Source: Ureibacillus sp. | GTDB lineage: Bacteria > Bacillota > Bacilli > Bacillales_A > Planococcaceae | NCBI GenBank assembly: GCA_031178355.1 | Contig: JAPSJC010000002.1 | Location: forward strand, 56,014-120,013 | Direction: 5' to 3' | Length of the DNA: 64,000 bases | Part shown: one piece after another, positions 20,800 to 32,223 of the stretch | Position numbering within the stretch: the first letter of the stretch is position 1 | Layout of the letters: each line of letters opens with the position of its first letter | Notes under the pieces: model-generated | What the model was told of the DNA's origin: nothing | What the model saw: only the letters and a program-made list of their open reading frames with translations | The model's database searches: none | Program-made: the position numbers and the translations under genes

Positions 20800-21882
20800 A
20801 TGCCTAAAATAGCTTCTGTGAGTGTATATGAACCACCGTATTCAATTAAACAATCTAATTTAGAACTTTTAACAAGAGAGCTATTTCGTGATAAATTTCA
20901 ACAATTTGACAGATTATTACGTGTATTTGAAAACGGAGAAATTGAATCACGACAATTTTGTGTTCCCATTGACTGGTATAAAGAAGACCATACATTTGAA
21001 GAACGGAATAACCTTTACATTGAATTAGCAACAAAATATGCAGTAAATGTCATTCATAAATGTCTTCAAAACTTATACTTCCTTGAACAACCCATTTTAC
21101 CTGAAGAAATTGATGCAATTATTTTTGTAAGCAGTTCTGGTTTCTCTACGCCAAGTATTGATGCACGAGTTATGAATCATATTCAATTTTCCGACCGACT
21201 AAAAAGAATACCTATTTGGGGACTCGGTTGTGCAGGAGGTGCATCTGGCATAAGTAGAGCATTCGACTACTGTTCTGCGCATCCTAACGATAAAGTACTT
21301 GTAGTTTGTGTTGAACTGTGTAGTTTATCTTTCCAAAAAAATGACTACTCGAAAAGTAACCTTGTAGGTGCCTCTCTATTTGCAGATGGAGTAGCTTGCG
21401 CACTAATATGTGGAGATGAAGTCAAAATTAATAACAAAAAAACTGTTCCCTACATATTAAATAGCGCTTCTAAATGGATGCCAAACTCTGAAAATGTGAT
21501 GGGTTGGGATATTAAAAACGACGGTTTGCATGTTATTTTTTCTAAAGACATTCCTTCCATCATATCTAGTTGGTTAGGTCCATTTATTCATCAATTTTTA
21601 GAAGAGAATGAGTTAGTACAAAATCACATTGCTCATTTTGTGGCACATCCTGGGGGCAAGAAAGTACTTAACGCATATAAAGAAGCTCTTAATTTAAAGG
21701 AGCAGCATACAGAGTTTTCTCGCGAAATATTAAGAAAGCATGGTAATATGTCTTCTCCAACCGTACTTTATGTACTCGAAAAGTATATGTTAAATGAATG
21801 TAATGCAGGAGATTACGGATTAATGGTTGCTTTAGGGCCAGGTTTTAGTGGAGAAGCAGTTTTACTTCAATGGAGGGATTAA
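20800..21882 (+). CDS. bpsA: Type III polyketide synthase (alkylpyrone synthase)
   Basis: A 360-residue chalcone-synthase-fold enzyme. The catalytic triad is visible: Cys in 'GLGCAGGASG' near residue 148, His in 'FVAHPGGKK' near residue 286 and Asn in 'HGNMSSPT' near residue 316. B. subtilis BpsA (BcsA) condenses long-chain acyl-CoA with malonyl-CoA to triketide pyrones. AAAGGAG precedes ATG. The BpsB-type methyltransferase follows after one base, so the operon should make methylated alkylpyrones. Length (about 365 in B. subtilis) fits. Confidence 0.93.
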   Translation: MPKIASVSVYEPPYSIKQSNLELLTRELFRDKFQQFDRLLRVFENGEIESRQFCVPIDWYKEDHTFEERNNLYIELATKYAVNVIHKCLQNLYFLEQPILPEEIDAIIFVSSSGFSTPSIDARVMNHIQFSDRLKRIPIWGLGCAGGASGISRAFDYCSAHPNDKVLVVCVELCSLSFQKNDYSKSNLVGASLFADGVACALICGDEVKINNKKTVPYILNSASKWMPNSENVMGWDIKNDGLHVIFSKDIPSIISSWLGPFIHQFLEENELVQNHIAHFVAHPGGKKVLNAYKEALNLKEQHTEFSREILRKHGNMSSPTVLYVLEKYMLNECNAGDYGLMVALGPGFSGEAVLLQWRD

Positions 21883-21883
21883 G

Positions 21884-22429
21884 TTGAGTATCTTCATGTT
21901 CGTCGTGTCATTCGTTATTTTACAAAGACTTATTGAACTAGTTATAGCGAAAAGAAATGAAACGATGATGTTAGCCAAAGGGGCTTTCGAGGTTGGAGCA
22001 GAACACTATCCTTATATGATTGCACTCCATGTGTCATTTTTCGTTAGTTTAATCTTTGAAGTGCTGTTCTTTCAAACTACCTTATCAGCCCTGTTTCCTT
22101 TCTTATTTATATTATTTATGATAGTTCAATGTATCCGCGTATGGTCCCTTATGTCGTTAGGCCAATTTTGGAATACTAAAATAATTATACTACCAGGTGC
22201 AAATGTTGTTAAAAGAGGACCATATAAACTATTTCGACATCCAAATTATTTCGTTGTTTGTTCAGAAATATTAATATTGCCTCTGATGTTTAATGCATAT
22301 TTTACTGCCTTAACATTTACTATATTAAATATAGCCATGCTCTCTATTAGAATTCCAATCGAAGAGAAAGCTTTAATGAATTCAACAAATTATAATCAAC
22401 AATTTAAGAAGAAGGTTTCAGCATCATGA
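21884..22429 (+). CDS. bpsB: BpsB-like isoprenylcysteine carboxyl methyltransferase family protein
   Basis: A 181-residue integral membrane methyltransferase (ICMT/PEMT fold) with about five membrane helices and the SAM-binding 'RHPNYFVV' motif near residue 123. B. subtilis BpsB (YpbQ) methylates the alkylpyrones made by BpsA. The track start (GTG 21848) lies inside bpsA; TTG at 21884 comes right after the bpsA stop with GGAGGG at good spacing and is chosen. A 12-bp hairpin overlaps the stop codon. Confidence 0.88.
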   Translation: MSIFMFVVSFVILQRLIELVIAKRNETMMLAKGAFEVGAEHYPYMIALHVSFFVSLIFEVLFFQTTLSALFPFLFILFMIVQCIRVWSLMSLGQFWNTKIIILPGANVVKRGPYKLFRHPNYFVVCSEILILPLMFNAYFTALTFTILNIAMLSIRIPIEEKALMNSTNYNQQFKKKVSAS

Positions 22430-28453: not shown

Positions 28454-29431
28454 CTAAAGGTTAACATTGTAATGATCAATTATGTAACAGCTGCCTTTTA
28501 TCTTCTTACAGAATCGCTTTATAGCAGCTACTTCGTTTGATAGATCTTCTAATTTTTCGAAATGATGTTGTTTATTTGTCAGTACTGCAATTGACAAAGA
28601 CATTAACGTAAGTTTCTCCATTTGACCTGACCTACCTTTTACTTGGAAATTGGGGTCAGAGAGATGTACGGGGTCATAAAATTTTGAAATTGTTTCATCA
28701 AATTCTTCAATAATTTTTTCGCAAATAGACTCAATATCATAGTGTGGGAAAAGGGCCATGAAATCATCCCCGCCGATATGCCCTAAGAAATATCCTAAGT
28801 GTAAAACATTTCTCTTTAATATGTCAGTTAGATGTAAAAGGACCTTATCCCCGTTATTGAACCCATAAAGATCATTATAAGTTTTAAAATAATCTAGATC
28901 GAAATACAGTAAACTAAATTGTTCTAATGAGATTAAATCCATTAATTGTTGATTAATTAAATGGTTACCTGGTAAATTGCTTAAGGGATTAAGAAAACTA
29001 GCAAATTCAACTTGAATTTCTACAAACTTCATCAAAAGTGCACGAATACTAACGACACCCACAAATTGGTTATCCTTTGTTACGATGACATCATCATACA
29101 AGTCTTCTTCTTCACGTTCCATCGCTAAGCGACTCACTTCCGTGATCGATTGATAGTAATCGACAATTAGTGGATTCGTCTTAGCAAGTAACTTACTTTC
29201 TCTACCCATATACAGGTTATATCCATAAAGAGTACCAATCTTTTGATAAAAATGTGTTCTAGTAATATTCGCGACCGGTTTTTCATGATGTACGACAACA
29301 ATTCCCCTAATATCAGGATTATCTGTAAATAGTTTGTCAACTTCTTTGTTTTTCACAGAAGGACTAATATACGGAACCTTCTTAACTATTCCTCCAATAT
29401 TAGTTGCCACTTCTCCTATTTTCGTCACCAT
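28454..29431 (-). CDS. GGDEF domain protein with N-terminal CBS-like region
   Basis: A 325-residue protein. Residues about 20-150 look like a CBS-type sensory pair ('PDIRGIVVVHHEKPVANITR', 'DDVIVTKDNQFVGVVSIRALL'). Residues about 160-325 are a GGDEF domain with the active-site loop 'GHIGGDDFMALFP', i.e. GGDDF in place of GGDEF, a conservative change that should still permit diguanylate cyclase activity. The I-site RxxD before it is not evident. It follows the EAL gene by 132 bases on the same strand, giving a split c-di-GMP make/break pair. Confidence 0.88.
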   Translation of the reverse strand: MVTKIGEVATNIGGIVKKVPYISPSVKNKEVDKLFTDNPDIRGIVVVHHEKPVANITRTHFYQKIGTLYGYNLYMGRESKLLAKTNPLIVDYYQSITEVSRLAMEREEEDLYDDVIVTKDNQFVGVVSIRALLMKFVEIQVEFASFLNPLSNLPGNHLINQQLMDLISLEQFSLLYFDLDYFKTYNDLYGFNNGDKVLLHLTDILKRNVLHLGYFLGHIGGDDFMALFPHYDIESICEKIIEEFDETISKFYDPVHLSDPNFQVKGRSGQMEKLTLMSLSIAVLTNKQHHFEKLEDLSNEVAAIKRFCKKIKGSCYIIDHYNVNL

Positions 29432-29467
29432 TTTCTCACCTAATCTTATATGGTATTTTTATCAAAT

Positions 29468-29560
29468 ACGACTGGGCGTATTTGCTTCCAGATTTTAACG
29501 AGACTTGCTCGATAAATCCTTTAAAAATCTGTGACATCTGCCGGAGGCCTCGACTGAATG
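29468..29560. repeat. Structured intergenic element between the EAL and GGDEF genes
   Basis: AAATACG/CGTATTT hairpin (about 29465-29485), then AGATTTT...AAAATCT enclosing CGAG/CTCG, then GTGACATCTGCCGGAGGC. The stacked palindromes and GC-rich end differ from the surrounding AT-rich DNA. The composition recalls dispersed repeats seen in Lysinibacillus-type genomes, from memory and unverified. No second copy is present in this window. Confidence 0.5.
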
Positions 29561-29563
29561 AAA

Positions 29564-30421
29564 TTAGCCATTTGGAATGCTACCAAGTTGAATCTCTTGA
29601 CTCGGTTTTCCTAACGCATACCCTTGAGCAAACTGGATTCCAACAGATTGAAGATAGTTTAACTCTTCGTATCGTTCAATCCCTTCCGCAATTATTTTTG
29701 TTTCAGATTGTTCAGCATAATTATGTATCAATGAAACTAACTTTTGACTAGATTCGTTTTGATCAATATTTTGGATAAGCGAACGGTCTAATTTTATAAA
29801 CTCTGGTTTTAAGTAAATTAATGTCTTCAAACTGTTATAGCCAGATCCGACATCGTCTATTGCAATTCGATAACCTTGCTTACGATAATGCGATAGTACT
29901 CTTTCAAATTCGTTAAAATCTGTAACTGCACTTCGTTCAGTTAATTCAAAGACCACTTGTTCAGGTTGAATACCAAGCTCTTTAATGAATTTAAACGTCT
30001 CACCACTATGGTAATTATTATCAAGCAAAACATGGGGATGAATATTGATAAATAAAATAAAATTCTGATGTAATTTACACTTACGTACCCGTTCGGTAAA
30101 TCTCTTTAGCGAGAGGTTTCTGCAAAACTGTTCAAATTGAAATACAATATTTGTTTGTCCAACAAACTCATAGAAATGATCGGTATTTTGAAAATGCTCT
30201 GATTCAATTGGACGATTCAATGCTTCAAAAGCGTATGTGTTACCATTTTGTATATCTACGATTGGCTGAAAGAAGGTATTTAAAGATTCTTGCTTAATAA
30301 TTTTAATTAATTCCTTATATCTTCTAAAGTACAACGATTCTTGATATCTACGTTGAAACTTATGTTTATAATAGGACCATAGATTAATAGATTTTTCGCT
30401 CGGAAATAGGACTGACTTCAT
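29564..30421 (-). CDS. EAL domain c-di-GMP phosphodiesterase
   Basis: A 285-residue cytoplasmic protein with an EAL domain over residues 45-280 and a short basic N-terminal helix. The catalytic set is present: 'EALNRP' (EAL), 'INIHP' (Asn), 'FELTERSA' (Glu), 'IDDVGSGYNSL' (paired Asp), 'IKLDRSLI' (Lys), 'IIAEGIE' (Glu) and 'QGYALGKP' (Gln). It should therefore hydrolyse c-di-GMP. It precedes the GGDEF gene in the same orientation. Confidence 0.9.
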   Translation of the reverse strand: MKSVLFPSEKSINLWSYYKHKFQRRYQESLYFRRYKELIKIIKQESLNTFFQPIVDIQNGNTYAFEALNRPIESEHFQNTDHFYEFVGQTNIVFQFEQFCRNLSLKRFTERVRKCKLHQNFILFINIHPHVLLDNNYHSGETFKFIKELGIQPEQVVFELTERSAVTDFNEFERVLSHYRKQGYRIAIDDVGSGYNSLKTLIYLKPEFIKLDRSLIQNIDQNESSQKLVSLIHNYAEQSETKIIAEGIERYEELNYLQSVGIQFAQGYALGKPSQEIQLGSIPNG

Positions 30422-31134: not shown

Positions 31135-31602
31135 TTAGGTACCGATCAATTTATTGATTTGTTCAAAATGATGTAAATCATGTTCTATGAAAGCTTTAAG
31201 ATAATCATAGAGGGTTAAGGCTCTTTCTTCAATATTTAGCTCTTTTTTCCACATCTCGTCATCAATGTTGTTAAGAGTAATAATTAGATTTCTTCTTATA
31301 TTTATAAATATTGAGATGGTTTCCTCTTTACTTCTCTCTCTACTAACCTCTGCAGATTCATGATTTAGCTCTTCTACGTTTGGCCCTTTTGGCATTGGAG
31401 TATTATTGAATAAATAAGGAATACGTTCATTTAAAAGGAATTCATCCCAAGGGGTCAAGTGGCCAATTATTTCTGCAATAGACCATTTATTTATTGCAAT
31501 TGGTGTTCTCCAATTTTCTTCAGGTATCTCTTCTAATTTTCGCACAAAATCAATGGAGTTCTCAAAATGAAATAATATTTCTTCTTTGTTTTTATCCAAC
31601 AT
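31135..31602 (-). CDS. DinB superfamily protein (155 aa)
   Basis: A 155-residue four-helix bundle protein. 'SIAEIIGHLTPWDEFLL' near residue 42 and 'AFIEHDLHHFEQINKL' at the C-terminus supply the metal-binding His residues of the DinB fold. It is more divergent than its neighbour, with an inserted 'NTPMPKGPNVEELNHESAE' loop. Probable thiol-dependent transferase or hydrolase; substrate unknown. GGAG lies before ATG 31602 and the YfiT-like gene follows. Confidence 0.82.
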   Translation of the reverse strand: MLDKNKEEILFHFENSIDFVRKLEEIPEENWRTPIAINKWSIAEIIGHLTPWDEFLLNERIPYLFNNTPMPKGPNVEELNHESAEVSRERSKEETISIFINIRRNLIITLNNIDDEMWKKELNIEERALTLYDYLKAFIEHDLHHFEQINKLIGT

Positions 31603-31763: not shown

Positions 31764-31791
31764 AAACCCGGAATAAAAATATTCCGGGTTA
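31764..31791 (-). terminator. Terminator after the small-ORF unit
   Basis: AACCCGGAATA pairs exactly with TATTCCGGGTT over a 4-base loop; T-rich sequence follows on the minus strand. It closes whatever is transcribed leftward from about 32.15 kb. Confidence 0.85.
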
Positions 31792-31855: not shown

Positions 31856-31885
31856 TTATTGAGAGTGCTTCGGTGGTTTGCTCAT
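31856..31885 (-). CDS. Possible 9-residue peptide ORF with strong ribosome site
   Basis: Minus strand ATG 31885 begins MSKPPKHSQ and stops at 31856. AGGAGGG lies 7-8 bases upstream, one of the best Shine-Dalgarno sites in the window, which argues that ribosomes load here. It could be a true micro-peptide or a leader ORF. It lies downstream of the 50-residue gene in the same transcript. Confidence 0.3.
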   Translation of the reverse strand: MSKPPKHSQ

Positions 31886-31951
31886 AGCAAATCCCTCCTG
31901 ATTTACATCTCGGATACAGTGAATGTGTGATTCACAAAATCCCAAATGATA

Positions 31952-32104
31952 TTACCAATGATGTGCTTTCGCATTACTTCTCAAAATTTGGGTTGACAGA
32001 GGAACCTCCGTACGACCATTTATTAGAGATTTTTGCATCTTTGGCTTTGAATAATTTCGGCTAAGCTTATGAGCTCTAGGATTAAAATGCCCTGGACCAC
32101 TCAA
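31952..32104 (-). CDS. Basic 50-residue protein, possible forespore small protein
   Basis: Minus strand TTG 32104 opens a 50-residue ORF (MSGPGHFNPRAHKLSRNYSK..., ending NAKAHHW). GAGGTGA lies 6 bases before the TTG. It is rich in Lys, Arg, His, Ser and Asn, with no membrane segment. A sigma-G-like promoter lies upstream (listed). Small basic hydrophilic products of sigma-G promoters are typically minor acid-soluble spore proteins; this one does not match the minor SASP families I remember, so the spore role is inference. Confidence 0.5.
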   Translation of the reverse strand: MSGPGHFNPRAHKLSRNYSKPKMQKSLINGRTEVPLSTQILRSNAKAHHW

Positions 32105-32148
32105 CGGTGCTCACCTCTCATCATCATTTTGGATTTCTAATGTGAAAC

Positions 32149-32179
32149 CATAATTAGTATGAGAAGTTGCGGTTCAATT
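32149..32179 (-). promoter_or_regulatory. Sigma-G/F-like promoter for the 50-residue gene
   Basis: On the minus strand GTATA is followed 17 bases later by CATACTA. The sigma-G consensus is gnATR, about 18 bases, then cAtnnTA, so both boxes fit with the spacer one short. The 50-residue ORF starts about 50 bases downstream with a good ribosome site. Confidence 0.45.
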
Positions 32180-32223
32180 ATACTCAAAAAAAATTAAAGG
32201 ACAATTACATTAAAAAGAGTTCA

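Follow-up and report, generated by a model that had tools for sequence, protein, structure and literature searches.

In the window, by which we mean the whole stretch of 64,000 nucleotides of Ureibacillus sp. DNA analyzed here, a short minus-strand gene of the YpzG family is predicted to give rise to an mRNA whose two ends are complementary to each other and pair around the open reading frame (ORF) as a panhandle. The new part of this observation is the self-complementarity of the ypzG mRNA ends, since no description of such a feature was found; to our knowledge, mRNA arms form no part of the description of this family. Judging from the sequence, gene identity, forespore expression, and the panhandle are, taken jointly, rather likely to hold.

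All the elements under study are contained in the gap of 621 bases between the ORFs ending at 31602 and 32224, and are given here in the direction of transcription on the minus strand. The sigma-G-type promoter consists of a -35-like element GTATA (32179–32183) and a -10-like element CATACTA (32155–32161) separated by a spacer of 17 bases, both being kept in relatives, the former as GNATR. Next comes the 5′ arm of the predicted panhandle (32122–32150), which begins approximately at the expected transcription start (32148–32149), immediately followed by the Shine–Dalgarno (SD)-like sequence GAGAGGTGA (32111–32119), with an arm-to-SD gap of 0 in the family, and by the ypzG-like ORF of 50 codons (31952–32104), which starts with TTG at 32104 and ends with a stop codon at 31954–31952 that is included in these coordinates. 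The 3′ arm (31928–31951) lies directly past this stop codon, and its duplex with the 5′ arm, also present in the full mRNA fold, amounts to −19.0 kcal/mol. A second, smaller unit precedes the rho-independent terminator of what thus is a two-unit transcript (31765–31790), whose CCCGGAA..TTCCGGG is kept in relatives. The promoter-like pair, the good ribosome site, the TTG-started ORF of 50 residues, and the strong terminator had been pointed out in the first-pass annotation and are each in place; the protein family match, the complementary arms, and the second tiny ORF (31885–31856) go beyond it. Elsewhere in the window, translations judged by eye point to a likely cyclic-di-GMP pair on the minus strand (28454–30421), made of a GGDEF-type gene (28454–29431) and an EAL-type gene (29564–30421), and, on the plus strand (20800–22429), to a type III polyketide (chalcone-type) synthase-like gene followed by a gene for an isoprenylcysteine-methyltransferase-like membrane protein.

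The product, MSGPGHFNPRAHKLSRNYSKPKMQKSLINGRTEVPLSTQILRSNAKAHHW, matches PF14139 (YpzG-like protein) over residues 1–48 of 50 with 43.2 bits against a cut-off of 27 (E 4.1e-11), and its alignments display the conserved YpzG core KSxxNGxTE...ILR...AKA; the window gene is almost certainly a member of the ypzG family. PF14139 was the sole match in Pfam and NCBIfam searches with E up to 10, where SASP models and NCBIfam yielded none, which rules out both an undescribed protein family and, by sequence, a minor SASP. The first-pass annotation had described a small, basic, and hydrophilic candidate undescribed forespore protein matching no minor SASP family. Its composition is confirmed (pI 11.6 and GRAVY −1.0, with family means of 10.8 and −1.35), as is the absence of SASP matches in Pfam, and its forespore assignment is favored by promoter conservation, co-occurrence with SASPs, and B. 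subtilis spore mRNA; the word “undescribed,” however, no longer applies to a member of PF14139, a family that is already known, though uncharacterized. Accordingly, the window protein resembles the minor SASPs (SspH–SspP, Tlp) in being small, basic, hydrophilic, and preceded by a sigma-G-type promoter, but matches none of their Pfam or NCBIfam models. With the YpzG family, including B. subtilis ypzG, it shares sequence, length, basic composition, and the link to sporulation; it differs in that its gene starts with TTG, is cotranscribed with another, tiny ORF, and has arms that are absent from some family members. YpzG is very basic and probably disordered when alone. AlphaFold models the window protein with low confidence (pLDDT 64), a C-terminal helix being likely at residues 36–49, and a search for solved structures of YpzG relatives returned none. 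From composition, one may guess, with some reserve, that YpzG is a minor spore-core protein binding nucleic acid.

Conservation in related genomes, a check that the first-pass annotation had proposed, is borne out for the ORF and the promoter alike. PF14139 ORFs are found in 43 of 101 related genomes (a second count was similar), and the nearest relatives retain a TTG or GTG start, the promoter, and the terminator. Of 200 genomes drawn from the order to which one relative belongs, 176 carry the family, and among 14 control genomes B. subtilis is its only carrier. A scan of named genomes gave 80 loci, distributed over Lysinibacillus, Solibacillus, Viridibacillus, Rummeliibacillus, Peribacillus, Priestia, Fictibacillus, Metabacillus, and other genera. 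The first four of these genera belong to the family called Planococcaceae here, as does the window. Some loci carry a tandem ypzG pair in which each copy has its own promoter, arms, and terminator (L014, L017, and L037), and at L039 (G016:C3:23280-23366) the ypzG frame is broken, with 26 codons open, while the promoter and arms remain.

The window promoter fits GNATR-N16-18-CATNNTA exactly, and this strict pattern precedes 42 of the 60 ypzG genes from Planococcaceae and 4 of the 55 from other families, versus none of 178 control ORFs. Outside Planococcaceae, an ATACTA-like -10 element occurs at 28 of 55 ypzG loci versus 4 of the 178 control ORFs. SASP gene promoters of the window's genus, read partly by eye, show GTATT or GTATR together with CATTCTA or CAATCTA. 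Moreover, ypzG is present in 43 of the 83 SASP-bearing genomes and in none of the 18 SASP-less ones among the 101 genomes (Fisher p 2e-5), a value to be taken as an indication rather than a test because the genomes are related. Dormant spores of B. subtilis contain ypzG mRNA as one of their very abundant RNAs (PMC5052260, PMC7407066). Forespore expression is thus supported by the conserved promoter, its likeness to SASP promoters, the SASP-only co-occurrence, and the abundance of the B. subtilis spore mRNA, and we regard sigma-G-directed expression of ypzG in the forespore as highly likely, with the proviso that sequence alone cannot tell sigma-G from sigma-F. In this regard, the ypzG mRNA would join forespore sRNAs such as CsfG and Bvs196, likewise sigma-F/sigma-G transcripts, which differ from it in being non-coding and in lying at other loci.

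With regard to the paired ends, an alignment of the six closest relatives shows that the leader and the 3′ UTR are conserved together with the ORF, and reading them side by side reveals that the 3′ UTR is approximately the reverse complement of the leader. Using RNAduplex, the 65 bases before the start codon were paired with the 34 bases from the stop codon, own pairs being compared with swapped ones over 5,000 shuffles. Across 115 distinct loci, own pairs average −17.1 kcal/mol versus −12.2 for swapped pairs (sd 0.28), and 0 of the 5,000 shuffles was as low. The effect is retained when each similarity cluster is represented by a single locus (51 clusters, z −11.3) and within groups (z −10.8 in Planococcaceae and −10.3 in other families). 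By contrast with these values, no pairing excess is seen at 178 control ORFs from the same loci (own −11.7 vs. swapped −11.1 to −11.7) or at 15 SASP genes (own −8.9 vs. swapped −9.3), which rules out pairing as a general trait, be it of sigma-G genes or of genes at large. In whole-mRNA ensembles, 11.4 leader:3′ UTR pairs are expected, versus 2.6 with a shuffled leader. The arm sequences themselves vary by clade, from ATGATG/CATCAT in the window's genus to ACATCAA/TTTGATG in L. odysseyi and its neighbor L043 and GGAATATCC/GGATATTCC in Peribacillus; despite these differences, each arm fits its own partner best, and the own-against-swapped duplex test is in effect a test of co-variation.

It is this test that carries the argument, because column-based covariation on the joined arms failed: RNAalifold on a MAFFT alignment of the joined arms gave no consensus structure, probably because arms with different indels misalign by column. 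A pairwise count of compensatory changes, whose control was not properly matched, was given zero weight. A later and wider sample of 41 loci displayed a weaker effect (−13.9 vs. −12.5, z −3.2, 7 of 5,000 shuffles), with certain clades paired and others unpaired, including group f40/g63 and some Bacillaceae, which rules out universal pairing across Bacillales. Within the window's genus, the 3′ arm is missing in three members (L012, L020, and L030). Within the window's family, then, the panhandle is a strong and widespread feature, whereas it is not shared by all of the YpzG protein family, as the unpaired clades and the three genus members without 3′ arm show. Overall, we consider it very probable that the panhandle is a real, selected RNA structure.

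The geometry of the arms hints at what this structure may do. In Planococcaceae, the 5′ arm spans the interval from about the expected transcription start to the SD, with a median gap of 0, and the 3′ arm starts a median of 1 base past the stop codon; in single-gene relatives, the terminator hairpin lies within a few bases of the end of the 3′ arm. Since the arms abut the ribosome site and the stop codon, the ORF forms the loop. The predicted accessibility of the SD is 0.44 with the 3′ UTR and 0.46 without it. On this basis, a sigma-G-type forespore gene would produce an mRNA for a YpzG-family protein of 50 residues, and this mRNA would fold as a panhandle with the SD and the ORF in its loop. 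Its 5′ end would be held in a helix and its 3′ end in the terminator hairpin, which could protect it from exonucleases while leaving the SD as accessible as before, and thus yield a long-lived forespore mRNA. Stabilization, the likeliest main role of the panhandle, is a tentative proposal, drawn from this geometry and from mRNA abundance, two observations made in different organisms, the spore mRNA abundance being that of B. subtilis and the panhandle that of other loci.

The main rival to stabilization is translation control, as in hok or icaR, whereby a fold-back or a pairing of the UTRs would keep the mRNA silent or slow until processing or germination. In hok-type mRNAs, the 3′ end folds back onto the 5′ end. 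Such mRNAs are built with a short ORF between paired ends, and ypzG shares this architecture; yet the YpzG product is no hydrophobic toxin, and no antisense RNA was identified. In Staphylococcus aureus icaR, a UCCCCUG motif located 260 nt past the stop codon pairs with the SD and favors decay by RNase III, an example from a Firmicute of how translation can be blocked when the 5′ and 3′ UTRs pair (PMC3868564). The ypzG UTRs are likewise complementary, but the ypzG 3′ UTR does not pair with the SD itself: the helix adjoins the SD at one end and lies directly past the stop codon at the other, leaving the SD outside (gap 0 after the arm) with a predicted accessibility that the 3′ UTR does not alter. 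We hold translation control to be rather unlikely.

Two further explanations are clearly less likely. The arms could be DNA elements, either the operator of a forespore regulator or the terminal inverted repeats of a small cassette undergoing duplication, as the position of the 5′ arm at the start site, its semi-palindromic sequence, and the multicopy, tandemly arrayed state of related transcripts might suggest. However, a fixed protein site leaves unexplained why the arms vary by clade and yet remain complementary, and a mobile unit would have its promoter and terminator inside the repeats, whereas the arms abut the SD and the stop codon. Marginally less likely still, this could be an ordinary minor SASP-like gene, in which a basic spore-core protein is what matters and the complementarity of the UTRs is incidental; a small, basic, and hydrophilic product under a sigma-G-like promoter is in keeping with it, but this product belongs to PF14139 and to no SASP family, and the arms exceed all controls.

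Past the ypzG 3′ arm, the transcript of the window continues with a second leader forming a 5′ arm (31924–31906), similar to the leaders that precede tiny PPK ORFs in relatives, then with an SD AGGAGGGA (31892–31899), a putative coding ORF of nine codons, MSKPPKHSQ (31885–31856, stop included), and a second 3′ arm (31812–31795), whose duplex with the 31906–31924 region reaches −16.0 kcal/mol, before the terminator. Most pairing in the predicted ensemble is internal to each unit, with a minority of cross-pairing between the two. The tiny ORFs at the equivalent position in L010, L022, L023, L031, and other loci (MINAEDNSTSNNPPKLIKEKHIFSI, MDKITENFDSDTPPKLKMVK, and others) are each preceded by a -10-like element of their own and a GATTTCAC leader, and the likeliest history is that the window's clade lost the ypzG terminator and the second promoter. 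Tiny ORFs of 20–31 codons with a (D/N)xPPK core were observed 3′ of ypzG at L007, L010, L014, L017, L022, L023, L028, L031, and L039, most of them sharing the leader, and a Pfam search with five tiny PPK ORFs of relatives assigned them to no family.

The string AYACTA-N4-7-GATTTCAC, which joins the -10 element to the arm, reaches as many as 11 copies in one genome within the genus, with almost none for the reversed control, and is also found in other Planococcaceae genera. Most of the extra copies correspond to an RNA of 120–200 nt whose GGAGGGTTAACCCGATGAGTG core is accompanied by a matching 3′ arm, arranged in tandem arrays in some species. This multicopy RNA comprises a sigma-G-type promoter, the GATTTCAC arm, the GGAGGGTTAACCCGATGAGTG core, a GAAGCGAGGCAGTGTGTCATGGAG element, and the CCCGGAA..TTCCGGG terminator, with an array spacing of ~178 bases; its loci include L163 (G005:C1:561303-562637), L154 (G015:C2:163479-164260), L178 (G008:C12:384099-384468), L183, L184, L186, L188, and L190, and the copy in the window's own genome, L165 (G000:C23:62-80), sits at a contig edge. 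In the related RNA of ~190 nt, the arms also pair, own pairs (−15.5) barely beating swapped ones (−14.6) because the arms hardly vary, and RNAalifold shows no double changes. With Rfam 15, the gathering score was never reached by 14 ypzG loci and 6 related-RNA loci, and low-threshold matches in the window and L163 looked like chance.

It is conceivable, if speculative, that ypzG, the tiny PPK peptides, and the multicopy structured RNA form one class of forespore transcripts, built of a sigma-G-type promoter, a 5′ arm at the start site, a variable insert, a complementary 3′ arm, and a terminator, in which the closed loop would be a dedicated device to preserve or program the RNA through sporulation and dormancy. 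It is debated whether the handful of mRNAs that are very abundant in dormant spores serve any use (PMC7649253), and a conserved RNA structure in such a gene would make part of this debate open to mutational experiment. If true, the ypzG mRNA would clearly exemplify pairing of the two ends of a bacterial mRNA around an ORF in which the helix leaves out the ribosome site.
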